From contig JAMWFC010000049.1 of NCBI GenBank assembly GCA_027475525.1, forward strand, positions 1,799,297 to 1,863,296: 64,000 nt of DNA. Reading direction: 5' to 3'. The translations under genes were made by a program, and so were the position numbers. Source of the stretch: Macrolepiota albuminosa. Taxonomy: Eukaryota > Basidiomycota > Agaricomycetes > Agaricales > Agaricaceae. The notes beneath the pieces were generated by a model. That model was not told the DNA's origin, did not search any database, and worked only from the letters and a program-made list of their open reading frames with translations. Positions within the stretch are counted from its first letter, which is position 1, and the number at the start of each line of letters is the position of its first letter. Of this stretch, positions 16,322 to 57,983 are shown piece by piece.

Positions 16322-19246
16322 ATGTCGTACTATCAGCGACATAAACAGCCTGAGAGTTTGAGCGCAGGCCCAAGGAGGGGGGGAACTGGGCATGACCCAG
16401 TGGACTATGAGGAAGAGAGCTATGAAGAGTTCGGTCAGCAGTCAATGCAGGCGTCACCTGCGCAAATGTTTTATGTGGGAGGACGGTATCAACAAGGTCC
16501 CCTGGGACAACAATATTATCATGCTACCCAGTGGGGGTATCCACAGGTGATGCCTGGCCCGGGTGGCCCGGTACCTATGGAGGTTGATGATGAAGTGCGG
16601 AATGTGCCACAGTACTACTACCCGCACCCAAGGGGAGCGGTGCAGTCAATTCCACAACCACGGGGAGTGGTGCAGTATGCGCCAAGAGGTTATATGGGAG
16701 CTCCTCTAGCACCACAAGTGCCTCTGCAGGCACCACGGCAATCGCAAAATGTCAGAATAGAGCTGCGAGTACACCGGGTGCAAGGGGGCACTGTGAAGAC
16801 TCCAGGTGCTCGACTCTCTGGCGCTGAGACGCCAAAAGCCCCTCTCGCTGCAAAAAGCGGGCGGGAGAAGGGCAGGGGACAGGTGGAGGAGCCAGTAGAG
16901 GCAGAGGAGGAAACACAAGAGGCCATGCAGCGGAGATTGGGGGCAGCGGGGTACTCTGTGCCCTCGGATGCCGAGTTCTTGAGTGATCCGCTTGTGATGA
17001 TGGTGTTGAGTGGGCTGCTGGATGAAAACAATAACTTGCGACGTCAGCGGCAGATGGCGCTGCAGCAGCTATTGAATGCGCAGAAGCGCAAAATGCAGAG
17101 CCAGACGGAGGACCGTGAGAGTGAGCCCAAGAGGACTAAAGTAGCAAAGGAAGAGCGCGGTGACGTACTACGGGGACATGAGAAGCAGCTGAGGAAGCCG
17201 TTAGTAGAGTTGGTGGAGGGACCGTTCACCGGGCTCACGGTGGAGGGTTGTGAGGAAGGTATGGAGGCAGGAGAACTGCTTTCCGGAGAAGTGTTGACTG
17301 CTGAAAGTATGGGAATCTGCAGGGCAGAGGAACCGGCGGTGAGGGTGAGTGAGACACCAGCGGGGAAAGTGGGGGCGTCAAGTGCACCCAGTAAGGATAT
17401 GGAGGCATCCATACATGCGCCCAGCCCGGTGATGGCAGCGCCAGCAAGGAGGCGGGGGCCTAGGCATCAGATTGATGAGAGCAAGCTGGTCTCACAAAAT
17501 TTTCCTGCCGATGTTCCGTTTGGGGCAGGACCTGCCCAGCTACAATTCGTACTTCCCGAGCTCCTGCCCACTCCAGCCAGTGTGTTTTTCATAACATTGG
17601 TTCCGAGTGATCCACAACCTGCTCCTGGCAGGATGGTGGAGGGTAAAGGAAAGGCTAAGGCAGCCTTTGGAGACATAGCAGATGAGGACAGTGATTATGG
17701 GCAGGAGTTGTCCTCCTCCACGTCAGACGGCGAAGAGGGTAGGCCCGGAGAGTCCTCAATGGATCGCCTGGGGAGACAGCTGTATCTTGCGCAGGCATGC
17801 AAAAAGAAGGCGAATCGGAAGCTGGAGGCAGAACGCCTTGTTGAGAGACAGGCCAAGTTGCAGTCCGGAAAAATCCCGGACTTGCTAGGGGCATACGTGT
17901 GGAACGCCCATAACGTGGAACAACGCAACTCCTGTTTTGTGGGGGGCCTGGGAGAGTATTTCTATTGGTCCCCTTACTCCAATGCTGTCTTCTTTGGGAA
18001 TGAGGCCAATAAGGCCTCGTACTTTGAGCAGCAATACCAGAAGGGCGTGGCCGTACCACGCACAATGGTATACAAGCATGCGCCACGGGGATTTCCCATG
18101 AACCCGCACAAGCTCGACAGGCTGTTCAAGTACCTGTCTAACAAGCACGCTCCACGGCAGGAACATATTGTGGCGTATATGCTGTTTACGGAGTTCCAGC
18201 ACTTTGCAGGTATGATTGAGGCCGAATTCCGAGACAATACAATGAGGTATGCACTGGACGACGCAACGTTTGCATCCCCAGTCAATTCTCGATGACCGGG
18301 CGTGTCTGAGGACTATGCCATGATGGAGTGGGTGACCATACCCCCTAGATTGACAATGCGCAAGGAAGATGGCAGCTTGCAACTCGTGGCTATGTGCCCC
18401 CCTCCACCTGCACAACCGTTTGACCTTGACACATTGGCGCAATACGCCATTGTATTTGGCCGCCTAGGCCTGGATAATGCATTTACTGGCCTGGCCTTCG
18501 ACTTGGCGTATCAGATACACTACCGTACGCTCTTTGGTTATGCCTTGGCACGGGCAGTGTGTGCCAGTGGAGCCGGTCGACCCACCGTAGTGCGACAGCT
18601 GGCACTGGTGTTTGCACAACCTGGATTGTACAGAGAGGCTGTAGCGGCCTTCAATGAGAAGGATGTTCACCACCCATTTCAGCCACTGGGTGGGGAAAGC
18701 TTTGATTGCCACCGAGTATACATGCCCAAAAGCACGTCACAGAATTTCAGCGACAATGATGCCATTCAAGTGCTGCTTCAGAATTGCATTCCAGTAGAAT
18801 GGGTGGACCATGCGTACACCTATGGATTAGTGTACATGGAGCAGCACTTCTTCAAGCCCACCGTGTCGCTCGACATTTTCTGAGCAGCTGATAACGAGCG
18901 ACATCATCGCTTGGCCACGTACGGCGTGCCTCCAGCCATCCCAAACTGGGATGGGTGGCGGGAGATGGATGCGGACAATCACTATCGCCTCTTATTTAAG
19001 ATTTGTGAGGAGGAGAGGGCAGGCATGCCCACACAGAGCAGGGGAATGTACTACTATATTGGTACCAACCCCAACTTCGAGTATCTGCAGATGAGACCAC
19101 GGAAGGACATTCCTCCCATCCTGACACCACCTGGATGCCCTGTGGACACCGAGGCAACTAACGTCGCCCTGGAGAATATGGAAATGGCCGCCCCCGAAGA
19201 GGTCGTGGAGGCTCAACCATTGTCGTTGACTAACGTCAACTTATGA
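16322..19246 (+). pseudogene. ORF3 of element A (975 codons, two stops)
   Basis: Start ATG 16322 (MSYYQRHK) matches the C family start (MSYPYQRT). One frame runs to TGA 19244-19246, broken by TGA at 18293-18295 and 18881-18883. Layout: Q/P/Y-rich N-terminus with VPMEVDDE near residue 80; a coiled-coil block FLSDPLVMMVLSGLLDENNN and RQRQMALQQL near 220-250, followed by KRKMQSQ and EPKRTKVAK basic clusters that could be nuclear signals; acidic DSDYGQELSSSTSDGEEG near 460; basic KKKANRKLEAER; then a long, probably globular part with AYVWNAHNVEQRNSCFVGGL, YKHAPRGFPMNPHKLDRLFKY, RTLFGYALARAVC, QPGLYREAVAAFNE, EWVDHAYTYGLVYMEQ, NWDGWREMDADNHYRLL and YYYIGTNPN. No membrane segment or known enzyme motif. 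Function unknown. Confidence 0.85.
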
Positions 19247-23201: not shown

Positions 23202-26018
23202 TTACGCAGATGGCGGACGCAACAACTCGTGAGCCGTATCAATCCTCATCTCAGTGTCGACGTTAACCGAGGATGATGAGGCGATGGGACCCGACGATGT
23301 TGAGGCTGTAGGAGCCTGAACTGACGTGGATGGGTGTGATGGAGAGGGGGGATAGGGCCCATGTCGAGAGCGGCGTTGCCATAAGTCTCGACGGTTGGGG
23401 TTCATCCCCACCGGATAGTATAGTCCACTTTCAAGGTACTCATGACCTTGATCGGATTTGCAGGCGAGTAGTGCATGGAGACGAATCATATCATTGTCCG
23501 TGGGCAGTCGCCAATCGTCCCACCGCGTGATGGCCGGGGGCTCTCCATAGAGGTCCAGTCGACGATGACGTTCATCGTCGACCTCACGGAACTGGTCAAT
23601 GGAGGCTGTGGCTGCAAGGAATTGGTTTTCGAGGTAGACCACGCCGAAGGTATAGGCGTGGTCCACCCACTCGAGAGGTACGCGGTTGGCTATCATAGCC
23701 CGTAGCACGTCAGCATCGGTGATGTGGACGGCATTAGCCGTGTCAAAGTATGGGGATCGGAACTGGACGTCAGTCTAGCTCATGGGTACGAATGGATTGC
23801 TGGGGTTGGCGGCGTCGTAATCTGCGACCGCCTCACGATACAGCCCAGGACGCGCGAGAATCAAGGCTAACAGCCTTGCAAAGCGTCCCCGAGCTCTTCC
23901 CGAAGGGGACAGTCCACGCGTCAGGGCATGGCCCAGCAGAGTACGCCAGTGAATGCGGTAAGCCCGATCCACTGCAATGCCGTATACCGAATTCATCATC
24001 CCTGGTCGACAGAAGTAGAGAACGTTCTGCGCCAGCTTGTCCAGATCGAAGGTGAAACGTACACCTTCGGAGTCAAACCCGGAAAGCATGAAAAACAGTC
24101 TTCCGGCTCGGTCCTTCCATCGCAGGTATCCGTCTGGGGTTGGCATGACCGCGATATTCATGTGATGGGATGATAAATCTAGAGGGGGCGAAATGTGCTC
24201 GTACTCTGGTGAACACACCAGAGCCATTGTCCTATCCCTCACCAATGTATAATAATTAATACTGATGCGCTGAAACTCGCGCAACAGATAGTAAGCCTTA
24301 GTGCGTAGAGACACTGAGGTGAACTTGTTCTGCGAAAGCTCATAAAGCTTTCGCAACTGCTGAGGATTCATCGGGAATCCCCTCGGTACCACTCGATTCA
24401 ACTCCTTTGAGGTATGGTAATACCTCTCTCCCCTTTCTTCCTCGTGCGTCTTCGCGGCCAAGGCTTCATCGCTCACAAATACCGTATTGGTGAGCTGGGA
24501 GTAATAAAAATGGCGGTCGAGTGCCCCGCCGTAGAACCAGTTGGAACGCTCCACCGACGTCCCGCTGACAAACACCCCGAGGCCATCAGGAATATGGCCT
24601 GTGGCCTGCTCCTCCCGGTCTTTATCGACCTTTGCCTGCCGGGTGGCCTCGTGCTTCCTCCGAGCCTCTTTTTTGCGTTTCTTGTCTAAACGCACTCGGC
24701 GTTTAGCGGGGGTTTCTCCTTCCGAGGGGGTCTCATCCGATGACTCCCCATAATCACTCCCATCGCTCGGTTCATTCAGACCGAGCGCAGCCAACGTTAG
24801 GAGTTGCCCTTCGACCTCGGCGTCCGTCCTCGTGTCCTTTATGGGGACCGCAGACGCATACGCCCTCAGTGGTGCCTCAAACTGCACCACTGCTCCGAAC
24901 CGCATCACAACTCTGTCTGCTCCTTGCGGGACGTCTGCTCCGAACTCCACTTCCGACAGGACCACCTCATCCTGCCGCTTCGCCCCTGACTGCTGGGAAG
25001 GTGCATGTGTTGACGAGGACAGTCCTCGTAAACTATTGTCAACCTCCACCAGCTCATCATGTAACTCGGCCGGGCTCGGAGTGAGTTCTCCAGATTCCCG
25101 CACCCCAACTTCTGGTCCTGCATCACGCGCTCTGAGGCATTTTGCCTCAGGTAGCTCCTCCGATGACGACGGACGCTTCTTCATAGCATTCGCGAAAGTT
25201 TTGATAGTATTGTTGTTACGCTGCTGCAGCATAACGATCTCATCCAGCAGACCCGTAATCACCACAACTCGCTGGCTGGCAGATATGAGGCGTCTCCAGA
25301 CTGCCTCTGCCTGAGGGTCCAACACCTCCGACGGCGTTCCAATCTCTCTTCCTTTTCCTTTCTCCGCGTACGATAAGCGCCGCAGAGATGGTGCACGACG
25401 GGGTGAAGGAGAAGCTCGTCGAGGCAGTGTTCGAGGTCGGGGTTGACCTCGATTTTGCGTCCTTGCTGCCAGCTCATCCCGTCTGCGCCCAACCATTTCC
25501 TGAGGCCCGCCTCCTCGTGCCCCGGTACTCCTCGGAGGCGATTGCCTCCAGTCTCTTCTATACGTCTCTCGCGGGGGCAGCGTCCTTTCTCGCTGTCGTT
25601 GAGGTTGCACCACCTCGCTCTTTACTTGCTGTTGACGCCCCGCGTCATTGTCCACGTCCATGGGTGCTACCTGTGGTGCAGTTAGTGCTTTCTCATCCGA
25701 AAGGAGTGTACTTGCACTCTGGGTCTGCGTCTGCTGCATCGGCATTGGCATTCCCCACATAACCTGTCCCCCCATCTGCTGTCCAGGACCAGCTGGTCCT
25801 GGGAAGTACGGCATCTGGAAGAACGGCGGATAAAACTGCGGAGGTTGTCCAAATTGGGCTGGGTTCTGCCCAAACTGGGACACCACTGGATACGACGCCA
25901 CAGTCGGCGTTGTTACAGGCTGCTGAATGTTTTGCTGGGGGCGATCCCCCCCTCCTCCAGAACCCTGTGGGTTCTGAGGTTGCTGCTCGCTGGTCGTACG
26001 CTGGTAAGGGTACGACAT
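23202..26018 (-). pseudogene. ORF3 of C1 (about 939 codons, one stop)
   Basis: Nearly the same protein as ORF3 of C2 at 47640-50495. ATG at 26018 (MSYPYQRT). One TAG at 23772-23774 replaces a tryptophan codon (TGG) of C2 and cuts off the last ~190 residues. About 17 residues containing VPPESAFLVDP in C2 are missing in the coiled-coil block. Otherwise it is open, with the acidic DGSDYGESSDE patch, KRRVRLDKKRKK basic stretch and the C-terminal conserved part. See the C2 entry for layout. Function unknown. Confidence 0.88.
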
Positions 26019-26248: not shown

Positions 26249-29200
26249 CTAAGCACGTGAGCGCTTAGCAAGCTGATTTGGGCGCTTCACCCCCTGCAGT
26301 TCTAAGTACCAATCCAACGCTGCCAACTTGGCACATGTGTGGTACGACTCCCATGTTGTATCACCTGCACTCCATCGCACCTCGAATTCGAGGTGCGTTC
26401 CTTCCTGCCACCAATGGCCCAGGATGTCCTCGACGAACCATTCTTGTTTGTCACTGGCACCAAAATCATATGGCTCGGGAGTCACCTGATTAGGGAACAT
26501 AGCATCATCGTTTGTGTTATACCGCCTAAGTAACGATACGTGGAACTTAGGCACAATCTGACGTGCTTGCAGAGCTGCAGGCAGCTCCAGAACATAGTTC
26601 GACGTGCTTGGTTCCGCGACCAAGACTCTGTATGGTCCAATGAATTTTGGACACAGCTTTCTTGCTCTTCCTTTCGGAAGATTCAAGTTCTCCGTCGACA
26701 GGTACACTAACGTCCCAGGCGTTAGTTCTGGTTCCTCACTTCGCCTATCATTTGCATGTCGTGCCTGTACAACACGCGCGGCTATGATAGCATTGTGTGC
26801 ATTGGCTAGATTCGCCAATGCTTGCTGTGCAAAGTCCTTTACCCCTTTGTGAACGACTCCGTCTGCCTTTAGTTTGTGCAGCATGGAGGGCATATAACCT
26901 CCATTGAGCTCGAACGGTGCGTATTTCGTGGTCTCAGACACACTCGCGTTGATTGCGAACTCAGTTAGCGGTATTCTATCCACCCAGTCGCGTTGGTCTG
27001 GTCAGACCACCGTACGAAAGATCTGGGCAATACTTCTATTTGCTCGCTCTGTCTGTCCATCCGTCTGTGGATGAAACGAGGTAGACATGAGTAATTTAGC
27101 TCCCAGGAGCTTGTGAAGTTCTCGCCACCAGTGAGATGTAAACTTGGTGTCTCGATCGCTCACGATCGAACTTGGAAGGCCATGTAGCCTTACAATCTCC
27201 TTCAAGTAGATCCAGGATAACGCGGACGCCGTAATGGTTGTGTGCACTGGTATCAAATGTACCATACTCGTCATTCGGCAAATGACCACCCAAAGGTAGT
27301 TATACCCTTTGGACTCGGGGAATGGACCAACAAAGTCCATTCCAATGGAGTCCCACGGCTTTGTCGGGATGGGCAGGGAATGCAACTTCCCTGCTGGCTT
27401 CCTATTGCTGGTCTTCGACCGCTGGCAGGCCTCGCAGGTCTGGCAGAACTGCATCACTTCTTTCTGCATCTGAGGCCACCAGTACCATTGCCTCAGGTAT
27501 TCTAGTGTTTTGTTGGTTCCAAAGTGACCAACAACCTCATGAGCTTGGGTGACAACCTTAGTGAGCAGTGTTTGGTCGCGTGGTAAGCACACCACGTCAT
27601 GCCCTCGAACATTCGTTATCCGGACTAGTCCTCTCTCATCCACGCTGAAGCGTGGATGGGCGTTTGCGTTCTGCCGGATTTCTGTGTAGAACGCATCGCG
27701 TCTATAGCCTCTCATCACCTTTTGGAGGTACTCATCGGTTTGAGGGACAGGAGGGTTACGATACTCTCCTGTAGGTGATAACACGTCAGCGAGCGTAATG
27801 TCGTGGCTATCCAGTCCACGACTGCTTCCAGTCTCACTTTGGTGTGGCTTTGTTGCCTCTTTTTGCTGAGCCTGCTCCAGTTGCTCAGCCTCTATGTCGC
27901 GGCCCTCTTGCTGCTCTTGCAGTCGTTGACTGCGTCGCAGTTCGGTAGCTTGCATAGCCCGAAGCTCGACCACATGCTCCTTCACCTCTCTGTAGCGATG
28001 ATACGGAAGATCATCGCCATGAGGATCAATACGAATGTCCGCATCGACATACTCATGCGTATCATGGTGTTCGCCTGCTCTATCGCTCTCGAAGTACCTC
28101 GAGAGACAGTCCGCCACCTTGTTCAGTTTGCCTTTGACATATGTGATGTCAAAGTTGTAGCGAGACATATAGTCAATCCACCGGCGTTGCCGGGGGGACA
28201 ACGTTGCTTGAGTCTTGAAGAACTCAAGTGCTTTATGGTCTGTAATGATGTGGATCTTATATCCCATCAATTTATCTTCCCACTTAAGGAGCGCCTCAAG
28301 TATCGCCAGCGTTTCAAGCTCATGGACCGCATAATTCTGTTGGGCCGAGGTGAACTTCCTCGACATGAACCCTGCAGGCCGACAATTTTGCCATGAGCTT
28401 CCCTGGCCGTACATTGCACCTACTCCGGTCTTTGAGGCATCACAGATGAGCCAAATCGGCTCATCACGTCGGGGATCTATGGGACGAATGACTGGTGTCT
28501 TTGAGCAGATCCTCTTGATCATCTCAAAACATTGTTGATGTATAGGTCTCCATATAAATGGAGCTCCATTCTGAGTAATAGACATCAACGGTCCAGTATA
28601 TGCTGTTATATCAGGCAGACAATTGCCGATATAGTTCACTAGTCCCACGAATCTTTGCACATCATTATAGTTACGAGGCACACGCCATTTGTGTATGCGA
28701 TCGATTTTGTCCTGGTCAGGGTGAATACCCTGACTATCAATCTTGTGTCCGAGGCAATCCACTGTCTTGGCATATAGTTCGCATTTCTTCCACTTGAGGT
28801 ATAGCAAGTTAGACCTCAGTCGCTCGAAAATGACACGAAGATGCTCTTCGTGTTCTTCGATTGAATCGGAGTATATGAATATGTCGTCCAAATAGATATG
28901 GACGAACCTCCCGATAACATCCCGGAAGATGGAGGTCATCAACCTCTGAAATGTCGCAGGAGCATTGCAATCTCCTATCTGCATAATGTTGCTCACATAT
29001 GTTCCCGTGATTGACGAGAACACTGTCTTTGGGATATCAGACAAGCGAATTCTCACTTGCTCATACGCATCCGTCAGGTCAATTTTCGACCTGAACTTTG
29101 CTCTCGCCACATCTTCTCGAATCACTTCCTGATCCGGAAGTGGCGTCACGTCCTTCACGGTGTTGTCATTGCGTTGGCGTGCATCCAACGCCGTCCTTAA

Positions 29201-29455
29201 TGTACCATCTTTCTTCGGAATGCACAATAGCGGAGCAGCTTGGGAGGCTGGTTGAGCCTCCCACCAGTGGGCTCTCAGGTACCGATTGGTCTTGTCTCGG
29301 AGCTGCTGCTGCAGCGCCATTGGGCATCGAGGCAAATGATATTTATACATCTTATTCTCATCAATAAGGTTGATTTCATGGTTGACCTCTCGCCAGGGAG
29401 GTAACTCCTCCTTGGTTCCGTTCAGAATATCCGCAAATTCCTGCTGCCACTGCAA
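26249..29455 (-). pseudogene. Reverse transcriptase, RNase H and integrase of C1
   Basis: The most complete pol of the lineage here. RT: LLCIPKKDGTLRTALDARQRN, KIDLTDAYEQVRI, HIYLDDIFIYS. RNase H: LICDASKTGVGAMYGQG, HELETLAILEALLKW, IITDHKALEFF. Integrase: zinc finger AHEVVGHFG with CQTCEACQ, core SIGMDFVGPFP, IVSDRDTKF, QTDGQTERANRS, GPY/F-type FIGPYRVLVAEPS and a tail with EDILGHWW, EFEVRWSAGDTTWESY and LDWYLELQG. Only two nonsense changes: TGA 29456-29458 at the start (CGA in C2) and TGA at about 26999-27001 (W-P-D-Q in A) inside integrase. All catalytic residues are kept. A chromodomain-like tail may direct integration. Confidence 0.93.
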
Positions 29456-32400
29456 TCATAGGTCCGGAATGTCCTCCTTCATAAAACCACTGGTTTTACA
29501 TTTGCCCTTCTGGTCCACATCCTTGCATGGGCGCCCGGACAGCTTTGCTTGCACGGCTGGACGGCCATACTTCTCTCTGAGGGCAGTAATCCTCAGCTCG
29601 CTGTCATCCGGCGTGTGCAGTCGCACAGGCACTTCCTTCTTACTTCTCTGCGACGTCACAGACAGTCCGTCGAAGAACACCTCACTCGGCGACGATATCT
29701 CGTCGTCACTAGCCTGACGATACGACTCCTCCTTCGACGTCCATTGTGGTCCATTCCACGCATACATCGACACCACTAGGTCATTCCACTCAGCAGGCAT
29801 TTGTGGATCAAATGCCCATTCAAATGTGGGATGAGGTACTGGCCAATCCCAGATTGACCGATTCGTATGTGTGGAGGACGCCTCATCCTCCATCAGTCCT
29901 TGGTCGTCGTCATCTGTTACCAAGTCCTCAACCTTCACTCGCGACAACGTCGGTTGGCACTCTGTGCTTGCCGCATGCTGAGGCCGCTTGTCCTCAGACT
30001 TACTCTGCTTTTCACACTTCATCTCCTTCATCTCGGGGCTCTCCCCCCTCTTCAGAGTACGTTCGTTGATACTCGCCTGCGTACCAAACTGTACCACAGC
30101 TCGGCTGCCCACAGTACCCAATTGAAGGAGTAGTGGCTCCTTCAACTCACTGACAGAAATATCGTGCACTTGGCAAAACTGGGGTGTCACCCCAGTAGTC
30201 GTACTACCTGAATCCCACAATGTCCACGCCTTGTGGCCATTCACCTCAACGTACGACGCCAGGCACTCCTTATCCTCGCGCTTCAACACCGGTCTCACCA
30301 GCTTCTCTGGAGCCTTGCGAAGGTGTACCTTATACACCTTAACATTGGCTGCTCCAATGGGACGGTCTAATGCGCTGGCCAGGTAGTCCGTCAGAGCTCC
30401 CATGAACTCTGAGTCTGACTCCCGGGCGTAATAATCGTTGTCGTATACGTCAACCTCCACGTATTCATCATCCGACAACTCCTCTACCACAGAGGTGTTT
30501 TCATCCTCTGGTGCATCAGGTATGAGGTTCTCCACCTCATCGTCTTCCACATCAGGTTCATTTCCGGAGTCTATCCCTTCAGCATCCGGGATAGCAGTGT
30601 GCGCCGCCCGTACATAGGCACGTGGCTTACCCATAGGCTTTCCACCACCCACTGGGCATGCATTCGCAAAATGCCCAGGCTGACCACATTTGAAGCACTT
30701 ACTCGCCACAAAAGGGCGAGCTGCTTCATACTTCGGTGGCCCAGTCGGTGTCGGCAATTTAGCCTCACCAGCAGCCTGATGCGGTCGAACACCCTCTCGG
30801 CACGGACCTCTCTGAGCATCCTGTGCCGGTGCATCCCTACGGTCCCCTGGCCGGTCGCTCCAGAAGCGTCGGTCTTGCCGAGGTGCTGCTCTTACCACAA
30901 ACCTCGGGTTCGTATTGCCCACCATCTCCTTTCGACGAGCCCAGAAGGTGCCTACCTTCCGAGGCTCGGCCCTGGTTACCGATCGAACCTTTGAGCTATG
31001 TAGCCCAAAGTGTCGCGCTATTTTGTGGGCTTGCTCGTAGCGCAATGCATGCGCTACAAATTCCTCGACGGTATTTACTTTGGGCAATAGTCCGTCATCA
31101 CAAATGAGGGACTCTCTCATTGCGTCAGGTATCCCCCGCAGGAAAGTATCAATCATTACCCAGTTGTCTGGGTAAATAGACATATTCTGTGCGTGGTCTA
31201 TCAAGGTATTATAGAAACCTTGAACACCTAATCGTTCAGTGTAGGAGGTTGCAATAAACGCCTCCCGAGCATCCTGCATGGTGGATGCACTCACGAACCG
31301 GTTATATAATTCAAGGATTACATCCTTGAACGTCCATTGCTGTCATGCACGATTGTAGTGCAAGACATGATGACGGAACCAGGCTTTGGCTGGTCCGTCC
31401 AGGAACTCCGGGAGCATGAACACACGTTCTCGATCCAGACGATCCCCCCCATACTGGCATGCTGCCAGATGGTTGCACACATCCATCGTCCAATTTTCCA
31501 AGTCGCTAAACTTGGACTCCCCTCTGTATGGTTGGATGTGTTTTGACTCCGCCTTACGCAGTTTGATACCTTTGGGCAGGTGCAATGCTACGCCTACCGC
31601 ATCGTCGATTATACTACTGAGGCGCTGGTGCATATTCTCAGTATACACCTTTGTCGCCTCAGCTATTCCAGGCGTTTTATTTCTACCTTCCGCTGGAGGT
31701 ACCACGGAGAATGCACATACAGGTCGGTGACCTGTGTAGTGCACTTTCTCTGCACCCTTCCAATGCAGTGGGCTCTCCTGTCCCCCTAGCTCTTCTATCA
31801 CCTGCTTTCCAGGGCCTCGGCTCGGATCCGCCGTGGGCGGGTCCCCTCTCCTGGTGTCAGGCTGTCGTGTCCGTTGGACATATTGCCTTCTCATCTCGTC
31901 GATGGGCGTTATCCCATCGAATACAATTCCCTGGTCGTCTATCCAGGAGTGCCCCTGGCGCTTCAGGTCTTGGTTCCGCATGCGCTGATAAGCTACTCTC
32001 TCCGCAAACTTATCAGCCAACGGCACTTGATTTGTCAGTGGAACATTCTCCACTGATTCCTGTTTTGTGTGAGGGTGCCTTGGCTCCCCCGCTTCGTGTA
32101 GGTTGCTATCTACCACAGGTATGGTAGACACCGATTCAGTTGTCGACAGAGGTCTCCTTCGCTGACCTCTGAATACATTCTGTCTTTGTGCTGCAGCAAA
32201 CCTGGCAGCGAACTGCTCGTCAGACTCTCCTGCTTGCTGGGGCGCATATATATTGCTCATTGCCTCTTCCAGATGGGGAGACAACTCTGGCTTTGCCACT
32301 GGGGGTATATTCGGAATCAAGTTTGCCCCCTCTGGAGTCGAGGCAGCTGATCCTCGATTAGCCTTGCGATACATATATGCTTGGGCTTCCAGCTCAAGAA

Positions 32401-33106
32401 TCTGAACGTACAATGTAATGTATTCAACAGTATTCAATTGAGGTACATTTTCACCTCTAGCCTGTATCAACCGTATGTGCTTCAGTACATACAGTCCTAG
32501 TCGAGCACGTGTGGTATCCTTTGTAATGCTAGGGTATCTCTTCCATAGCATAGCACACTGAACCTGAAGGGTGGACTCACTCCGTCCACTCTCTTCGTCG
32601 TCGGACGTTTCATCTTCCCAATGTACTGCCAGCATTCTTTGCTCAGGAATTGTCGTTTCCTGCGGCACTCCGGCTCCCTGCTGACGTTGCATCATGGGAG
32701 TGGATTCAGTTGGAACTCTCCAACTGCCCGCCTCTTGCCTCGGCATCTTCCCCAGAAAGTACGATGAAGGTCTGCGACCTTCGATAGGTCCCTGAGCACT
32801 ACTCCTGCTCTGGAATTGTCGCCCTGACCTCCCAGTCTGCATGGAAGATTCATGATCCCTGCCGAACTGCTGTTCCAGGTCTTCCACAATTGCCCCTGGT
32901 CTCGCTGCACCGCTTGGCGCAGCTGTCGGCCGCACTTCACTCCATTGCGTCCCTCCTGGCATTCCCTGAGGCTGTCGTGAAGGCTCGGCCTCAGTATTTT
33001 CTGACCCAGGACGACCCGGGTCAGTCGCCGCAGATTGAGGATATGCCAACGACTGGTCGATGGTCTCACCATCGTGTGTCGGTTCAGTAGATTGATTGGT
33101 CTCCAT
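29456..33106 (-). pseudogene. Gag and truncated protease of C1
   Basis: ATG 33106 (METNQSTE). N-terminal block DDEESGRSESTLQVQ and RARLGLYVLKHIR, coiled-coil-like segments, capsid-like region (FSDLENWTMDVCNHLAACQY, AKAWFRHHVLHYN, VQGFYNTLIDHAQNMSIYPDNW), then a canonical CX2CX4HX4C knuckle CFKCGQPGHFANAC. An acidic linker leads to the protease with LWDSGSTTTGVTPQF. A TGA at 31343 replaces arginine. After QFGTQASI the sequence jumps to ERTLKRGES, losing the protease core block that follows the active site and the conserved UGA, so Gag-Pro is fused in frame to the RT linker. Confidence 0.9.
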
Positions 33107-33228
33107 CCAATCAAGTGTTGCTACGTCTCGTTTTACCCGGAAGCATGCGTCAAAGAAGTTGATGCACTGTTCGATGCAATCACAGTCTAGGCTATCAGTC
33201 TAGCCCCGTAGTCTTCGTCCGCAGTAAC

Positions 33229-46551: not shown

Positions 46552-47256
46552 CTAGAGCTGGGGCCCCGAACTACCCTCACCCTCCCCTCTCCTCGGCCAG
46601 CCCCGGAAACCCTCCCCCATCCCCTCTGGGCCATGCTCCCGCCACACTTCCTTGGCCAACAAATCCCAGGATGGGAGGGGCTCGCCTTCGTCCAGCACGT
46701 GCTCAAACCAGGATCCCGGGGTGGGCACGTTCCTCTGCTGATGTGCGGCCACCAGCCGCCCCAAGAGATTGAGGCCGCGCTCCACCCTGGGGGTCGTCAC
46801 CTCTGGGTGTTGCCCCTCCCGCAACGCAGTGAGTGCCACGGCAGCCCCGTCCAGGAGCAGACGGTGCTCCCGGGCCCAGCCTGAAGACGTTAGCAACAGA
46901 GGTGAGTGAGTGACAAGGGACTCACTTAAGGACGCCATGCGCGCAATGACCACATCACGGCGCAGCCCCTCCATCAACTCCGGCTCCGAGGGGATTCTCT
47001 CCGGGCTCCCCACTCCCTGCCCCAGCCTCGCCCGCAGCGCCTTCAACTCAGCCTCCACTTCTCCTCGGGCGACCCTGGCCTCCTCCAGGTCCTGGATCAT
47101 TGCCTCCCGACCCTCCTCCAGATCCTGCCCGGCCGCCGCCTCCTCCCTTGCCCCCTCTCCATGGCCCCCCTGCTCCCGCTCCTGCAGGGCCCTGACTTCA
47201 TCAGCTTGGAGTCCCCTGGACAAGGGGGAGAATGTCGCTGGGGATAGGTGCGGGTG
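46552..47256 (-). pseudogene. Antisense gene of element D, 3' part
   Basis: About 230 codons on the minus strand, ending at TAG 46552-46554. It continues the reading frame of 56071-57068: removing C2 and one GGGTG copy joins V-S-H-P-H-L-S-P-A-T-F to S-P-L-S-R-G-L-Q-A. The first half is charged and heptad-rich (DEVRALQEREQ, EEARVARGEVEAELKALRA), a likely coiled coil; the second half is helical with GLRRDVVIARMASLSESL, HRLLLDGAAVALTALREGQH and PGSWFEHVLDEGEPLPSWDL. I recall similar hypothetical proteins from Agaricomycetes but know no function. Confidence 0.7.
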
Positions 47257-47447
47257 TGAAACAAAGTCAAGTATAGGGTTAGCCTTACGGTCACACCAAC
47301 AGAACCAGATCGATATTCGATTCTAGTACTACGAGTATGACAGTAAAATTGGCTGCCTTATGTAAGGCAGCCAGCATGTATGTAGAGTAATAATAATTAA
47401 CTAATATAAGTATATATTAATTAATTAACTAGGTATAATCTGTTACA
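47257..47447 (-). repeat. 3' LTR of C2
   Basis: 191 bp, palindrome at 47351-47372. Abutting it at 47448-47459 is the polypurine tract CAAAGGGGGGCA (minus strand). Confidence 0.95.
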
Positions 47448-47459
47448 TGCCCCCCTTTG

Positions 47460-47639
47460 AGACTGGTAGCCAGTCTCGATGTAAGGAGGGACACGTTTTT
47501 GTCCAGGTCACTAAATAGGTCAATGTGGAGGAGCTCTGGTCCTCCACGGCTCGAAAATGTCCAAGTCATCTGTCAAAAAATACAACGCCGACGTTAACCG
47601 ACAGTATGAATTGAAAAGGAGATGAGCCGCCTACGAAAT
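47460..47639 (-). other. 3' untranslated region of C2
   Basis: Parallel to 23023-23201 of C1; nothing coding. Confidence 0.5.
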
Positions 47640-50495
47640 TCACGCAGACGGCGGACGCAACAACTCACAAGCCGTATCAATCCTCATCTCAGTGTCGACG
47701 TTAACCGAGGATGATGAGGCGACAGGACCCGACGATGTTGAGGCTGTAGGAGCCTGAACTGACGTGGTAGGGTGTGACGGAGAGGGGGGATAGGGCCCAT
47801 GTCGAGAGCGGCGTTGCCATAAGTCTCGACGGTTGGGGTTCATCCCCACCGGATAATATAGTCCACTTTCAAGGTACTCATGACCTTGATTGGATTTGCG
47901 GGCGAGCAGTGCATGGAGACGAATCATATCGTCGTCCGTGGGCAATCGCCAATCGTCCCACCGTGTGATGGCTGCAGGCTCTCCATAGAGGTCCAGTCGA
48001 CGATGACGTTCATCGTCGACCTCACGGAACTGGTCAATGGAGGCTGTGGCTGCAAGGAATTGGTTTTCGAGGTAGACCACACCGAAGGTATAGGCGTGGT
48101 CCACCCACTCGATAGGTACGCGGTTGGCTATCATAGCCCGTAGCACGTCAGCATCGGTGATGTTGACGGCATTAGCCGCGTCGAAGTACGGGGGTTGAAA
48201 CTGGACGTCAGTCCAGCTCATGGGTACGAATGGGTTGCTGGGGTTGGCGGCGTCGTAATCCGTGACCGCCTCACGATACAGCCCAGGGCGTGCAAGAATC
48301 AAGGCTAACAGCCTTGCAAAGCGTCCCCGAGCTCTTCCCAAAGAGGACAGTCCACACGTCAGGGCATGGCCCAGCAGAGTACGCCAGTGAATGCGGTAAG
48401 CCCTATCCACTGCGATACTGTATACCGAATTCATCATCCCCGGTCGACAGAAGTAGAGAACGTTCTGCGCCAGCTTGTCCAGATCGAAGGTGAAACGTAC
48501 ACCTTCGGAGTCAAACCCGGAGAGAGTAAAGAACGGTCTGCCGGCTCGGTCCTTCCATCGCAGGTACCCGTCTGGGGTTGGCATGACCGCGATGTTCATG
48601 TGATGGGATGATAAATCGAGAGGGGGCGAAATGTGCTCGTACTCTGGTGAACACACCAGAGCCATCGTCCTATCCCTCACTGACGTATAGTAATTAATAC
48701 TGATGCGCTGAAACTCGCGCAACAGATAGTAAGCCTCAGTGCGTAGAGACACCAAGGTGAACTTGTTCTGCGAAAGCTCATAAAGCTTTCGCAACTGCTG
48801 GGGATTCATCGGGAATTCCCGCGGTACCACTCGACTCAACTCCTTTGAGGTATGGTAATACCTCTCTCCCCTTTCTTCCTCGTGCGTCTTCGCGGCCAAG
48901 GCTTCATCGCTCACAAATACCGTATTGGTGAGCCGGGAGTAATAAAAATGGCGGTCGAGTGCCCCGCCGTAGAACCAGTTGGAACGCTCCACCGACGTTC
49001 CGCTGACAAACACCCCGAGGCCATCAGGAATACGGCCTGTGGCCTGCTCCTCCCGGTCTTTATCGACCTTTGCCTGCCGGGCGGCCTCGTGCTTCCTCCA
49101 AGCCTCTTTTTTGCGTTTCTTGTCTAAACGCACTCGGCGTTTAGCGGGGGTTTCTCCTTCCGAGGGGGTCTCATCCGATGACTCCCCATAATCACTCCCG
49201 TCACTTGGTTCGTTCAGACCGAGCGCAGCCAACGTTAGGAGTCGCCCTTCGACCTCGGCGTCCGTCCTCGTGTCCTTTATGGGGACCACAGACGCATATG
49301 CCCTCAGTGGTGCCTCAAACTGCACCACTGCTCCAAACCGCATCACAACTCTGTCTGCTCCTCGCGGAACATCCGCTCCGAACTCCACTTCCGACAGGAC
49401 CACCTCATCCTGCCGCTTTGCCCCTAACTGCTGGGGAGGCGCATGTGTTGACAAGGACAGTCCTCGTAAACTATTGTCAACCTCCACCAGCTCGTCATGT
49501 AACTCGGCCGGGCTCGGAGTGAGTTCTCCAGATTCCCGCACCCCAACTTCCGGTCCTGCATCACGCGCTCTGAGGCGTTTCGCCTCAGGTAGCTCCTCCG
49601 ACGACGACGGACGCTTCTTCATAGCGTTCGTGAAGGTTTTGATAGTATTGTCGTTACGCTGCTGCAGCATAACGATCTCATCCAACAGACCCGTAATCAC
49701 CACCTGAGCCACCGGATCCACTAAAAACGCAGACTCCGGTGGCACTCGCTGGCCGGCAGATATGAGGCGTCTCCAGACTGCCTCTGCCTGAGGGTCCAAC
49801 ACCTCTGACGGCGTTCCGATCTCTCTTCCTTTTCCTTTCTCCGCGTACGATAAGCGCCGCGGAGATGGTGCACGACGGGGTGACGGAGAAGCTCGTCGAG
49901 GCGGTGTTCGAGGTCGGGGTTGACCTCGATTTTGCGTCCTCGGTGCCTGCTCATCCCGTCTGCGCCCAACCATTTCCCGAGGCCCGCCTCCTCGTGCCCC
50001 GGTACTCCTCGGAGGCGATCGCCTCCGGTCTCTTCTATACGTCTCTTGCGGGGGCGGCGTCCTTTCTCGCTGTCGTCGAGGTTGCACCACCTCGCCCTTT
50101 ACTTGCGGTTGACGCCCCGCGTCATCGTCCACGTCCATGGGTGCTACCTGTGGCGCAGTTAGTGCTTTCTCATCCGAAAGGAGTGTACTTGCACTCTGGG
50201 TCTGCGTCTGCTGCATCGGCATTGGCATTCCCCACATAACCTGTCCCCCCATCTGCTGTCCAGGACCAGCTGGTCCTGGGAAATACGGCATCTGGAAGAA
50301 CGGCGGGTAAAACTGCGGAGGTTGTCCAAATTGGGCTGGGTTCTGCCCAAACTGGGACACCACTGGATACGACGCCACAGTCGGCGTTGTTACAGGCTGC
50401 TGAATGTTTTGCTGGGGGCGATCCCCCCCTCCTCCAGAACCCTGTGGGTTCTGAGGCTGCTGCTCACTGGCCGTACGCTGGTAAGGGTACGACAT
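47640..50495 (-). CDS. ORF3 of C2: intact 951-residue protein of unknown function
   Basis: The only long undamaged retroelement gene here. ATG 50495, stop 47640-47642. Rough layout: 1-115 Q/P/G-rich, probably disordered; PMDVDDDA near 120; 130-225 R/S/P-rich (RRDRRRSPPRST, RRASPSPRRAPSPRR), SR-like; 240-320 coiled-coil block with FLVDPVAQVVITGLLDEIVM, then KKRPSS and KRLRARD; acidic DGSDYGESSDETPSEGE near 430 followed by KRRVRLDKKRKKEAWRKHE; 490-930 a conserved, probably globular region (DGLGVFVSGTSVERSN, YYHTSKEL, FPMNPQQLRKLYEL, DLDKLAQNVLYFCRPGMMNS, AYRIHWRTLLGHAL, PGLYREAVTDYDAANPSNPF, EWVDHAYTFGVVYLENQ, LYYPVGMNPNRRDL). No signal peptide, membrane span, zinc site or catalytic motif seen. 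The basic clusters suggest a nuclear or nucleic-acid role; that is inference. It has its own ATG and a GATC-rich spacer upstream. Confidence 0.9.
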   Translation of the reverse strand: MSYPYQRTASEQQPQNPQGSGGGGDRPQQNIQQPVTTPTVASYPVVSQFGQNPAQFGQPPQFYPPFFQMPYFPGPAGPGQQMGGQVMWGMPMPMQQTQTQSASTLLSDEKALTAPQVAPMDVDDDAGRQPQVKGEVVQPRRQRERTPPPQETYRRDRRRSPPRSTGARGGGPREMVGRRRDEQAPRTQNRGQPRPRTPPRRASPSPRRAPSPRRLSYAEKGKGREIGTPSEVLDPQAEAVWRRLISAGQRVPPESAFLVDPVAQVVITGLLDEIVMLQQRNDNTIKTFTNAMKKRPSSSEELPEAKRLRARDAGPEVGVRESGELTPSPAELHDELVEVDNSLRGLSLSTHAPPQQLGAKRQDEVVLSEVEFGADVPRGADRVVMRFGAVVQFEAPLRAYASVVPIKDTRTDAEVEGRLLTLAALGLNEPSDGSDYGESSDETPSEGETPAKRRVRLDKKRKKEAWRKHEAARQAKVDKDREEQATGRIPDGLGVFVSGTSVERSNWFYGGALDRHFYYSRLTNTVFVSDEALAAKTHEEERGERYYHTSKELSRVVPREFPMNPQQLRKLYELSQNKFTLVSLRTEAYYLLREFQRISINYYTSVRDRTMALVCSPEYEHISPPLDLSSHHMNIAVMPTPDGYLRWKDRAGRPFFTLSGFDSEGVRFTFDLDKLAQNVLYFCRPGMMNSVYSIAVDRAYRIHWRTLLGHALTCGLSSLGRARGRFARLLALILARPGLYREAVTDYDAANPSNPFVPMSWTDVQFQPPYFDAANAVNITDADVLRAMIANRVPIEWVDHAYTFGVVYLENQFLAATASIDQFREVDDERHRRLDLYGEPAAITRWDDWRLPTDDDMIRLHALLARKSNQGHEYLESGLYYPVGMNPNRRDLWQRRSRHGPYPPSPSHPTTSVQAPTASTSSGPVASSSSVNVDTEMRIDTACELLRPPSA

Positions 50496-50565
50496 GGTAT
50501 CACAAAAAACGTCGATGTGTCAGTGGGAAAAAACACATTAAATTCCCCATCATCAGGTTACATAA

Positions 50566-50703
50566 CCTGATCCGACCCTCTCCTCCGCATCATGATCCGC
50601 GTTATCTCATCAGATAGATCAACTTCCATCTTATCTATCTGGACAACTTGTGATCCGATCAGGATCAGATACTCGGTCGATCCGAGATCCGACTGATCCG
50701 GCC
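50566..50703 (-). promoter_or_regulatory. GATC-rich spacer upstream of C2 ORF3
   Basis: About nine GATC cores, including GTGATCCGATCAGGATCAGA, between the integrase remnant and ORF3. Positional match to 26089-26224. Confidence 0.35.
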
Positions 50704-50727
50704 TTCATCTTATCACTGCCATCAATC

Positions 50728-52453
50728 TAAGCACGTGAGCGCTTAGCAAGCTGATTTGGGTGCTTCACGCCCTGCAGTTCTAAGTACCAATCCAATGCTG
50801 CCAACTTGGCACATGTGTGGTACGACTCCCATGTCGTATCACCTGCACTCCACCGCACCTCGAATTCGAGGTGCGTTCCTTCCTGCCACCAATGGCCCAG
50901 GATGTCACTAGTCCCACGAATCTCTGCACATCATTATAGTTACGAGGCACACGCCACTCGCATATGCGATCGATTTTGTCCTGGTCAGGGTGAATACCCT
51001 GACTATCAATCTTGTGTCCGAGGCAATCCACTGTCTCGGCATATAGTTCGCATTTCTTCCACTTGAGGTATAGCAAGTTAGACCTCAGTCGCTCAAAAAT
51101 GACACAAAGATGCTCTTCGTGTTCTTCGATTGAATCGGAGTATATGAATATGTCGTCCAAATAGATATGGACGAACCTCCCGATAACATCCCGGAAGATG
51201 GAGGTCATCAACCTCTGAAATGTCGCAGGAGCATTGCAATCTCCTATCTGCATAATGTTGCTCACATATGTTCCCGTGATTGACGAGAACACTGTCTTTG
51301 GGATATCAGACAAGCAAATTCTCACTTGCTCATACGCATCCGTCAGGTCAATTTTCGACCTGAACTTTGCTCTCGCCACATCTTCTCGAATCACTTCCTG
51401 ATCCGGAAGTGGCGTCACGTCCTTCACGGTGTTGTCATTGCGTTGGCGTGCATCCAACGCCGTCCTTAATGTACCATCTTTCTTCGGAATGCACAATAGC
51501 GGAGCAGCTTGGGAGGCTGGTTGAGCCTCCCACCAGTGGGCTCTCAGGTACCGATTGGTCTTGTCTCGGAGCTGCTGCTGCAGCGCCATTGGACATCGAG
51601 GCAAATGATATTTATACACCTTATTCTCATCAATAAGGTTGATTTCATGGTTGACCTCTCGCCAAGGAGGTAACTCCTCCTTGGTTCCGTTCAGAATATC
51701 CGCAAATTCCTGCTGCCACTGCAATCGTAGGTCCGGAATGTCCTCCTTCGTAAAACCACTGGTTTTACCTTTGCCCTTCCAGTCCACATCCTTGCATGGG
51801 CGCCCGGACAGCTTTGCTTGTACGGCTGGACGGCCATACTTCTCTCTGAGGGCAGTAATCCTCAGCTCGCTGTCATCCGGCGTGTGCAGTCGCACAGGCA
51901 CTTCCTTCTTACTTCTCCGCGACGTCACAGATAGTCCGTCGAAGAACACCTCACTCGGCGACAATATCTTGTCGTCACTAGCCTGACAATACGACTCCTC
52001 CTTTGACGTCCACCATGGTCCATTCCACGCATACATCAACGCCACTAGGTCATTCCACTCAGCAGGCATTCGTGGATCAAATGCCCATTCAAATGTGGGA
52101 TGAGGTACTGGTCGATCCCAGATTGACCGATTTGTATGTGTGGAGGACGCCTCATCCCCCATCAGTCCTTGGTCGTCGTCATCTGTTACCAAGTCCTCAA
52201 CCTTCACCCGCGACGACGTCGGTTGGCACTCTGTGCTTGCCGCATGCTGAGGCCGCTTGTCCTCAGACTTACTCTGCTTTTCACACTTCATCTCCTTCAT
52301 CTCGGGGCTCTCCCCCCTCTTCAGAGTACGTTCATACTCTACAGCTTCGCTTTCCAGCATCAACACCGCCGGACTATCCATGGGCAAGCTCACACAAGCT
52401 TGCTCTTCATCCTCTCCATCCTCAACCGTAGGCGCTTTCCTGCCTCCATCTAG
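50728..52453 (-). pseudogene. Truncated pol of C2 (RT plus integrase tail)
   Basis: From the codon after the conserved stop: linker LDGGRKAPTVEDGEDEEQ, then RT with LLCIPKKDGTLRTALDARQRN, KIDLTDAYEQVRI and HIYLDDIFIYS, to NDVQRFVGLV. There the deletion fuses it out of frame to the integrase tail; the fused frame ends at 50780. The tail itself (EFEVRWSAGDTTWESY, LDWYLELQG) is readable in another frame down to about 50728. RNase H and integrase core are absent, so this copy would need enzymes from another element. Confidence 0.92.
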
Positions 52454-52456
52454 TCA
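52447..52456 (-). promoter_or_regulatory. Conserved UGA-CUAG stop between protease and RT, element C2
   Basis: On the minus strand CGA CAC TGA CTA GAT GGA, stop at 52454-52456 followed by CTAG. The frame is open before and after it. Same alignment position as 11786 (A) and 22746 (B). Confidence 0.68.
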
Positions 52457-55400
52457 GTGTCGCCTGACTAGCACCTTCTTCTCCGTGGCGTGGTGTCGAT
52501 GGAGATGTCCATCTCCATTATCTATGGTCACTCGCATTGCAGGGATGGTCGTGCCATCCACCACTATCTCATTCTTCTTGAAGTTCAGCAGAACGTTGTG
52601 CTTCCTCATATACGGCGTGCCTATAATCATGTCGTAACGATCAAAGTTCGCCACATCAAGGTACTCCCTCGTCCTTGATTTCGCACAGGCGATACTCGCC
52701 TGCGTACCAAACTGTACCGCAGCTCGGCTGCCCACAGTACCCAATTGAAGGAGTAGTGGCTCCTTCAACTCACTGACAGAAATATCGTGCACTTGGCAAA
52801 ACTGGGGTGTCACCCCAGTAGTTGTACTACCTGAATCCCACAATGTCCATGCCTTGTGGCCATTCACCTCAACGTACGATGCCAGGCACTCCTTGTCCTC
52901 ACGCTTCAACACCGGTCTCACCAGCTTTTCTGGAGCCTTGCGAAGGTGTACCTTATACACCTTAACATTGGCTGCTCCAATGGGACGGTCTAATGCGCTG
53001 GCCGGGTAGTCCGTCAGAGCTCCCATGAACTCTGAGTCTGACTCCCGGGCGTAATAATCGTTGTCGTATACGTCAACCTCCACGTATTCATCATCCGACA
53101 ACTCCTCCACCACAGAGGCGCTTTCATCCTCTGGTGCATCTGGTATGAGGTTCTCCACCTCATCGTCTTCAATATCAGGTTCATTTCCGGAGTCTATCCC
53201 TTCAGCATCCGGGATAGCAGTGTGCGCCGCCCGTACATAGGCACGTGGCTTACCCATAGGCTTTCCACCACCCACTGGGCATGCATTCGCAAAATGCCCA
53301 GGCTGACCACATTTGAAGCACTTACTCGCCACAAAAGGGCGAGCTGCTTCATACTTCGGTGGCCCAGTCGGTGTCGGTAATTTAGCCTCACCAGCAGCCT
53401 GATGCGGTCGAACACCCTCTCGGCGCGGACCTCTCTGAGCATCCTGTGCCAGTGCATCCCTACGGTCCCCCGGCCGGTCGCTCCAGAAGCGTCGGTCTTG
53501 CCGAGGTGCTGCTCTTACCACGAACCTCGGGTTCGTATTGCCCACCATCTCCTTTCGACGAGCCCAGAAGGTGCCTACCTTCCGAGGCTCGGCCCTGGTT
53601 ACCGATCGAACCTTTGAGCTATGTAGCCCAAAGTGTCGCGCTATTTTGTGGGCTTGCTCGTAGCGCAATGCATGCGCTACGAATTCCTTGACGGTATTTA
53701 CTTTGGGCGATAGTCCGTCATCACAAATGAGGGACTCTCTCATTGCGTCAGGTATTCCCCGCAGGAAGGTATCAATCATTACCCAGTTGTCTGGGTAAAT
53801 AGACATATTCTGTGCGTGGTCTATCAAGGTATCATAGAAACCTTGAACACCTAATCGTTCAGTGTAGGAGGTTGCAATAAACGCCTCCCGAGCATCCTGC
53901 ATGGTGGATGCACTCACGAACCGGTTATATAATTCAAGGATTACATCCTTGAACGTCCATTGCTGTCGTGCACAATTGTAGTGCAAGACATGATGACGGA
54001 ACCAGGCTTTGGCTGGTCCGTCCAGGAACTCCAGGAGCACGAACACACGTTCTCGATCCAGACGATCCCCTCCATACTGGCATGCTGCCAGATGGTTGCA
54101 CACATCCATCGTCCAATTTTCCAAGTCGCTAAACTTGGACTCCCCTCTGTACGGTTGGATGTGTTTTGACTCCGCCTTACGCGGTTTGATACCTTCGGGC
54201 AGGCGTAATGCTACGCCTACTGCATCGTCGATTATACTACTGAGGCGCTGGTGCATATTCTCAGTATACACCTTTGTCGCCTCAGCTATTCCAGGCGTTT
54301 TATTTCTACCTTCCGCTGGAGGTACCACGGAAAATTCACGTACAGGTCGGTGACCTGTGTAGTGCACTTTCTCTGCACCCTTCCAATGCAGGGGGCTCTC
54401 CTGTCCCCCTAGCTCTTCTACCACCTGCTTTCCAGGGCCTCGGCTTGGATCCGCCGTGGGCGGGTCCCCTCTCCTGGTGTCAGGCTGTCATGTCCGTTGG
54501 ACATATTGCCTTCTCATCTCATCGATGGGCGTTATTCCATTGAATACAATTCCCTGGTCGTCTATCCAGGAGTGTCCCTGGCGCTTCAGGTCTTGGTTCC
54601 GCATGCGCTGATAAGCTACTCTCTCCGCAAACTTATCAGCCAACGGCACTTGATTTGTCAGTGGAGCATTCTCCACTGATTCCTGTTTTGTGTGAGGGTG
54701 CCTTGACTCCCCCGCTTCGGGTAGGTTGCTATCTGCCACAGGTATGGTAGACACCGATTCCGTTGTCGACAGAGGTCTCCTTCGCTGACCTCTGAATACA
54801 TTCTGTCTTTGTGCTGCCGCGAACCTGGCAGCGAACTGCTCGTCAGACTCTCCTGCTTGCTGGGGCGCATATATGTTGCTCATTGCCTCTTCCAGATGGG
54901 GAGACAACTCTGGCTTTGCCACCGGGGGTATATTTGGAATCAAATTTGCCCCCTCTGGAGTCGAGGCAGCTGATCCTCGATTAGCCTTGCAATAAATGTA
55001 TGCTTGGGCTTCCAGCTCAAGAATCTGAACGTACAATGTAATGTATTCAGCAGTATTCAATTGAGGTACATTTTCACCTCTAGCCTGCATTAACCGTATG
55101 TGTTTCAGTACATACAGTCCTAGTCAAGCACGCGTGGTATCCTTTGTAATGCTAGGATATCTCTTCCATAACATAGCACACTGAACCTGAAGGGTGGACT
55201 CACTCCGTCCACTCTCTTCGTCATCGGATGTTTCGTCTTCCCAGTGTACTGCCGGCGTCCTTTGCTCAGGAATTGTCGTTTCCTGTGGCACTCCGGATCC
55301 CTGCTGACGTTGCGTCATGGGAGTGGATTCAGTTGGAACTCTCCAACTGCCCGCCTCTTGCCTCGGCATCTTCCCCAGAAAGTACGACGAAGGTCTGCGA

Positions 55401-55729
55401 CCTTCGGTAGGTCCCTGAGCACTACTCCTGCTCTGGGATTGCCGCCCTGACCTCCCAGTCTGCATGGGAGATTCATGCTCCCTGCCGACCTGCTGTTCCA
55501 GGTCTTCCACAAATGCCCCTGGTCTCGCTGCACCGCTTGGCGCAGCTGTCGGCCGCACTTCACTCCATTGCGTCCCTCCTGGCATTCCCTGAGGCTGCCG
55601 GGAAGGCTCGGCCTCTGTGTATTCTGACCCGGGACGACCCGGGTCAGTCACCGCAGATTGAGGATATGCCAACGACTGGTCGATGGTCTCACCATCGCGT
55701 GTCGGTTCAGTAGATTGATTGGTCTCCAT
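52454..55729 (-). pseudogene. Gag and complete protease of C2
   Basis: ATG 55729 (METNQSTE). One frame to the UGA-CUAG stop with two premature TGA codons, about 55124-55126 and 54488-54490, both where C1 has CGA arginine (TTRARLGL; QRTRQPDTRR). Capsid-like region, knuckle CFKCGQPGHFANAC, acidic linker, protease with LWDSGSTTTGVTPQF and NFDRYDMIIGTPYMRKHNV through HATEKKV to the stop. The full protease shows what C1 lost. Confidence 0.92.
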
Positions 55730-55879
55730 CCAATCAAGTGTTGCTACGTCTCGTTTTACCCGGAAGCGTGCGTCAAAGAAGTTGATACACTGTTCGATGC
55801 AATCACAGTCTAGGCTATCAGTCTAGACCCGTAGTCTTTGTCCGTAGTATCAGAATTGAACCCGAAAGGTTCAAAAAAG

Positions 55880-56070
55880 TGAAACAAAGTCAAGTATAGG
55901 ATTAGCCTTACGGTCACACCAACAGAACCAGATCGATATTCGATTCTAGTACTACGAGTATGACAGTAAAATTGGCTGCCTTATGTAAGGCAGCCAGCAT
56001 GTATGTAGAGTAATAATAATTAACTAATATAAGTATATATTAATTAATTAACTAGGTATAATCTGTTACA
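55880..56070 (-). repeat. 5' LTR of C2
   Basis: 191 bp, palindrome at 55974-55995. The adjoining leader at 55852-55879 matches C1. Confidence 0.95.
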
Positions 56071-57978: not shown

Positions 57979-57983
57979 ATTAA

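Follow-up and report, generated by a model that had tools for sequence, protein, structure and literature searches.

Is the long open reading frame (ORF) that lies downstream of pol in a set of Ty3/gypsy long terminal repeat (LTR) retrotransposons of Macrolepiota albuminosa a gene in its own right, and if so, what might its product do? We consider this question in a window of 64,000 nucleotides (the whole stretch of DNA analyzed), where four element copies, here called C2, C1, A, and B, carry such a frame (ORF3). In C2, ORF3 is intact and open over 951 codons at 47640..50495 on the minus strand, and the remaining five frames of this interval have 28–40 stops each (28 in the plus-strand frame). 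An earlier note on this DNA, made from the letters alone, had listed a frame of about 950 residues here; the frame is real, and its strand, left unstated there, is the minus strand. Long ORFs are found at the other three places that it named as well, though only the C2 copy is intact. In three subfamilies, the gene follows pol and precedes the 3′ end of the element. We tentatively read ORF3 as a genuine third gene of one Ty3/gypsy chromovirus-type lineage that encodes an intracellular accessory protein, most likely nuclear, and we give this reading as a whole somewhat less than an even chance.

The argument for selection on ORF3 rests on codon counts and not on raw identity, because several non-coding parts of the elements are kept about as well. 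Between families, synonymous change (dS) is saturated, and the ratio of nonsynonymous to synonymous change (dN/dS, or ω) is given for C1/C2, a pair whose divergence is a mix of pre- and post-insertion time. For this pair, ω is 0.24 over 937 codons of ORF3 (Nei–Gojobori; 0.29 and 0.20 in the two halves), 0.24 over 1041 codons of gag-pro, and 0.52 over 475 codons of reverse transcriptase (RT). Because transitions inflate synonymous change, the values were compared with a null matched to the mutation spectrum, in which the substitutions seen, kept to their type and CpG context, were scattered randomly over the sequence in 2000 shuffles. Relative to this null, ω is 0.38–0.40 for ORF3, a level that none of the 2000 shuffles reached in either direction, and 0.41 for gag-pro, again with 0 of 2000 as low. 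C1 and C2 are 95.0 and 96.2% identical over the halves of ORF3, 96.9% over gag-pro, 97.5% over RT, and 84.8% over the 230-nucleotide gap before ORF3. In the C family, purifying selection acts on ORF3, with a constraint like that on gag-pro, and the selection on protein function that the earlier note had proposed is borne out.

The alignments show a common layout for the protein: an M(D/E)VD motif, a helical module, a basic patch, a variable linker, an acidic/lysine segment, and a C-terminal domain. In C2, all on the minus strand, the conserved M(D/E)VD motif lies at residues 119–124 (50124..50141), within a low-complexity N-terminus. Residues ~225–320 (49536..49823) hold the short module FL.D...GLLD, judged helical from its sequence and by inspection likely amphipathic, followed by a basic patch that resembles a nuclear localization signal (NLS). 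An acidic patch and then a lysine-rich segment follow at residues ~430–484 (49044..49208), and the conserved C-terminal domain, ~420 residues long, spans residues 485–905 (47781..49043). This domain contains the WVDHAYT and WDGW blocks and many near-invariant positions, with top blocks at H703, W797–Y802, W846–W849, and Y880–N888; H703 is kept in 125 of 125 sequences, W797 and Y802 in 99% of 99, and W846 in 88 of 88. The sequence blocks singled out in the earlier note occur in A, B, and C, some of them weakly: FPMNP is not kept in B, where WVDHAYT reads WMDHVYT, and IPDGLG reads IPDLLG in A. Its serine/arginine-like region proved not to be general, as an Arg/Pro/Ser-rich stretch is found in C only and B-type relatives align without the Arg/Pro stretch.

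Searches of 5.8 billion proteins, each scoring the ~8000 candidates that share most words with the query, place ORF3 in a larger family. Among the matches listed there are at least 132 distinct relatives, all of them named Termitomyces (strains T32_za158, Mi166, T159_Od127, Mn162, and J132). By summed BLAST score, the nearest window copy is B for 118 of these 132, C for 14, and A for none, and all 14 C-nearest relatives come from T32_za158. Judged by these names, the host of the elements is probably Termitomyces or a near relative (Lyophyllaceae). One relative, P0047 (C0992_001983), is a public gene model in which a gag part with zinc knuckle and protease runs on into the middle of the ORF3 domain, and is either a rearranged copy or a gene-prediction artifact. 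Its zinc knuckle, which scores just below the cut-off and lies in the gag part, is the only one that Pfam gave among the ORF3 proteins scanned. That gag part is matched by a gag fragment with a zinc knuckle, from another family, which adjoins the C1 5′ LTR at 33448–35479 (minus strand).

No known domain was recognized in the protein. Pfam gave none in the window copies and, in the 50 relatives scanned out of the 132 listed, no more than weak hits here and there; none of the listed relatives has an entry in the precomputed Pfam column, and PDB sequence searches returned nothing below E 0.3; the earlier note knew of no described family, and these searches add none. The same Pfam set (window copies and 50 relatives) has no match to GDSL or exonuclease (DEDDy) profiles. 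That ORF3 is a Gag duplicate was considered and rejected, as it does not resemble the gag-pol pieces of the elements themselves (best E 0.42, against a piece of RT) and its part of the proteins in this Pfam set has no zinc knuckle or gag profile. These searches also bear on the idea that ORF3 was captured from the host and that its conserved domain retains a cellular activity. Accessory ORFs of outside origin are described in other LTR elements, in the available portions of PMC5408684 and PMC9289625, and the conserved polar residues H703, D799, H800, E810, D821, and D847 could suit an enzyme. The lack of a Pfam family beyond those weak hits and of a PDB relative by sequence speak against capture, although a donor diverged past the reach of word searches would escape; on balance, we think that such an origin is improbable.

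The divergence between copies bears on how the gene has traveled with its elements. The earlier note had counted three diverged families; the blocks are shared by all three, but A and C are better described as subfamilies of one lineage because their RT–RNase H regions are 79% identical (431 residues). Elsewhere, A and C are 48% identical in the region leading up to the integrase zinc finger, 72–80% in the integrase core and tail, and 38–44% in gag. In ORF3 (BLAST on open pieces), the values are 28–29% over A residues 182–641, 41–50% in the next piece, and 31–40% in the tail; BLAST did not align A residues 1–181 with C, and the core is 35% identical over 195 three-way columns. C2 and B are ~37% identical in ORF3, and the A pieces are 42–47% identical to B. 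Judged from these alignments, ORF3 diverges about as fast as Gag, and the best reading is that it has been inherited together with gag-pol. The identity ranks differ between regions, A and B being the closest pair in ORF3 and the most distant in the integrase tail, a mismatch for which module exchange or unequal rates are possible explanations.

A Gag-like rate and a Gag-like constraint would also suit a second structural or packaging protein, one that coats or organizes the element RNA or the particle together with Gag in the cytoplasm. The partly helical domain and the basic low-complexity N-terminus of C are in keeping with this, and the helical module and the basic segments of the protein could serve such a role. 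The absence of similarity to the elements' own gag-pol pieces argues against it, as does the absence of a zinc knuckle or gag profile from the ORF3 part, and the element already has a Gag with a zinc knuckle. We regard this structural role as rather unlikely.

The position of ORF3, which follows the integrase end and precedes the polypurine tract, recalls that of env and could indicate an envelope-like or transmission gene. The protein itself does not look like an envelope. No signal peptide or membrane anchor appears in a hydropathy scan of C2 ORF3 (no dedicated predictor was applied), where the top 19-residue mean is 1.54 (Kyte–Doolittle) and falls inside the helical module. Nor is there a cysteine- and glycan-rich ectodomain, C2 ORF3 having 4 cysteines and 1 N-glycosylation sequon in 951 amino acids; moreover, acidic and lysine-rich segments are conserved. 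The earlier note had already remarked on an env-like position with no Env, and we agree: Env is unlikely because there is neither a membrane segment nor a cysteine/glycan pattern, and an envelope or transmission role of any kind is the least probable of the alternatives, far below the others.

The basic patch points in another direction. In each of the 14 proteins that bear the anchor used to place it (C2, A, and B, plus 11 from the 132 listed relatives), it comes after the helical module. A strict bipartite-NLS pattern occurs in 10 of them, at different residues; composition shuffles meet this pattern at 0.00–0.18 except in A, and the mean chance is ~0.09. The earlier suggestion of a nuclear or nucleic-acid-binding factor may hold and is plausible, but the strict signal is found in 10 of 14 proteins and the serine/arginine-like region in C alone. 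On account of its basic patch and lysine-rich segment, and of a constraint like that on Gag, we favor an intracellular accessory protein, which may be nuclear and act on element DNA or on host chromatin or silencing. In such a scheme, the basic patch would serve nuclear entry, the helical module would mediate self-association, and the basic segments would contact nucleic acid or chromatin. The C-terminal domain would bind a partner, which could be the element's complex of cDNA and integrase or else a host factor of chromatin or silencing, and the outcome would be delivery or continued expression of new copies.

A special case of this accessory role is an anti-silencing factor directed against host DNA methylation or small-RNA control. 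Fast divergence under constraint, as in host–parasite conflict, is consistent with it, as is the NLS-like patch. CpG transitions are expected in the decay of methylated elements, and of the premature stops in C1 and C2 that can be compared with the sister copy, 4 of 5 look like CpG-site transitions. Against this case, nothing ties the protein directly to methylation, its rate of change is no faster than that of Gag, and no fold has emerged. We consider an anti-silencing function unlikely.

Several observations weigh against the nuclear accessory reading itself. The NLS anchor was chosen with the alignment already known. The bipartite pattern fails in 4 of the 14 proteins; in 8 of the 14, one half of the pattern is a basic pair within the helix and the other half is the patch, and in 5 (C2, A, B, P0003, and P0125) the patch and a second cluster form it wholly after the module. 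For A, shuffles reach the pattern at 0.41. AlphaFold models are poor (mean pLDDT 51.7 with 22 sequences and 58.0 with 137), the helices at C2 residues ~565–628 and ~705–800 being fairly confident and the whole model not, and fold searches with Foldseek and VIA gave nothing convincing. The largest protein search is represented by the best 120 of 275 matches at E≤10. With regard to selection, RT shows no sign of constraint (ω relative to the null 0.89, 694 of 2000 shuffles as low, from only 36 substitutions), and ORF3 is not clearly better kept between C1 and C2 than the LTRs (94.3–94.8%), the 3′ tail (92.7%), or the leader (96.0%). Finally, the T-tracts before ORF3, which we describe below, are not striking in C1 and C2, where 117 and 62 of 2000 shuffles reach them.

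How might such a gene be expressed? The gap between the pol stop and the ORF3 ATG is 230, 231, 191, and 162 nucleotides in C1, C2, A, and B, respectively, and in C1 the coordinates put ORF3 and pol in different frames. ORF3 is probably made from a separate message because of this gap of 160–230 nucleotides and, in C1, the frame change as well. A T-tract (T6, T6, T8, and T11 in C1, C2, A, and B) starts 37–55 nucleotides before the ATG in all four gaps; a run of this kind arises in 7 and 4 of 2000 dinucleotide shuffles of the gap for A and B. The C2 gap (50496..50726, minus strand) has T6 tracts 38 and 14 nucleotides before the ATG. Other runs of T6 or longer are rare, with one in A and two each in C1 and C2, one always lying just after the 5′ LTR. 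The T-tract shortly before the start codon hints at an internal promoter, which we would prefer over splicing. A CAG/TAG acceptor between T-tract and ATG is possible in C1, A, and B, but splicing is less favored because C2 has none, and no splice donor common to C and A was found.

The elements that carry ORF3 are otherwise of a familiar type. C2 spans 47257–56070 and has the TG...CA LTRs, 5-bp target duplication, and polypurine tract of a Ty3/gypsy LTR element. On the minus strand, its 3′ LTR lies at 47257..47447, preceded by the polypurine tract, and its 5′ LTR at 55880..56070. The insertion looks recent because the 191-bp LTRs are 99.5% identical and a 5-bp repeat, CACCC (minus-strand reading), lies on their outer sides at 47252–47256 and 56071–56075. 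C2 is nevertheless a defective copy: its gag-pro-RT and the remnant of a chromodomain-like end (50727..55822, minus strand) contain premature stops, and ~2.2 kb present in C1 at 26428–28636 are deleted at junction 50905/50906, removing RNase H and integrase. The location of ORF3 between integrase and polypurine tract, as stated in the earlier note, accordingly holds for C1, for A, and, with respect to its integrase end, for B, and cannot be read in C2 because of the deletion; the order is taken from C1 and A.

In C1, ORF3 (23202..26018, minus strand) has one premature stop and lacks 13 residues of the helical module. C1 gag-pol (26249..33199, minus strand), with three premature stops, encodes a zinc knuckle, protease, RT, RNase H, integrase, an SH3 (GPY/F) domain, and a chromodomain-like end. 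ORF3 of A (16322..19246, plus strand), an element with LTRs at 8094–8288 and 19503–19697, has two premature stops; that of B (4121..7068, minus strand) has a frameshift or frameshifts and a stop, its last 641 codons being open (4121–6046). Pfam recognizes RT, RNase H, integrase zinc-binding and core domains, and SH3_Tf2-1 (GPY/F) in C1 and A, the C1 protease and A integrase core falling below the curated cut-off, and with the coordinates these give the order gag-pro-RT-RNase H-integrase with a GPY/F-type SH3 domain in both. By eye, a chromodomain-like end is seen in B as well as in C1 and A, where it follows SH3; Pfam Chromo has no match in C1 at E≤0.1. A T6–T7 GAACC/GAATC box stands directly after each 5′ LTR, at 8289–8310 (plus strand) and 55860–55879 (minus strand) and at the matching place in C1; no primer-binding site was identified near these boxes, complementarity to the LTR being 6 nucleotides in A and fewer than 6 in C2.

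A fourth chromovirus-like element, D (42054–46884, plus strand), has protease, RNase H, integrase zinc-binding, SH3_Tf2-1, and canonical Chromo domains. The 0.9 kb between D and C2 contain no ORF3 match, and the 3′ LTR of D was not located; D is a possible control without the third gene. The window further contains an inverted repeat (59178–59289 and 59395–59506, with 112-nucleotide arms, 89% complementary and 105 nucleotides apart), two ~760-bp stretches, 91% identical, that the described elements do not account for (38631–39366 and 57223–57986), and a perfect 76-bp direct duplication at 36083–36235 with a single base between the copies.

Additional ORFs are known in LTR elements of other hosts, and the following comparisons refer to the available text of each source. 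Fungal Ty3/gypsy chromoviruses (PMC3248453, PMC2864245) resemble the present elements in RT, RNase H, and integrase domains and in the SH3_Tf2-1 of C1 and A, but differ in that the latter have a third gene of ~950 codons after pol; a further difference is the C1 end without a Pfam Chromo match, in contrast to the canonical Chromo of its neighbor D. In that text, PMC3248453 describes fungal LTR elements by gag and pol and does not use the words env or envelope, and PMC2864245 has a single "env-like" mention, concerning Athila-like elements. These plant elements have an extra env-like ORF beside gag and pol, a likeness of description only and in a different host kingdom. In bdelloid rotifers (PMC5408684), the ORF3s of LTR elements are GDSL esterases, DEDDy exonucleases, or env; they too are extra third genes after pol and mostly not envelopes, but their profiles are unmatched here. 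Orchid gypsy elements (PMC9289625) carry an AlkB-type RNA demethylase ORF, likewise proposed to bear on host control, whereas no 2-ODD/AlkB profile matches the window copies or the 50 relatives. PMC5689174 and PMC2774666 add nothing on such an ORF in fungi, and a literature search, thin on subscription papers, found no description of the ORF3 family or of such an ORF in fungal or basidiomycete elements. Thus, the third ORF is known as an arrangement in plants, orchids among them, and in rotifers, and the protein family was not found described.

One wider scenario, which we regard as doubtful, is that this lineage evolved or captured its own nuclear protein family, which would protect or target the element in chromatin, as an anti-silencing or integration-targeting factor, and act in trans, helping the spread of defective copies such as C2. 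For annotation, the results mean that many Termitomyces "hypothetical proteins" are probable transposon genes. For the elements, a third gene under Gag-like constraint implies that they depend on something more than copying and integration, perhaps some interplay with the host nucleus. ORF3 could then help to show how elements of basidiomycetes survive in the face of silencing, which would matter most if the protein is an anti-silencing or targeting factor.

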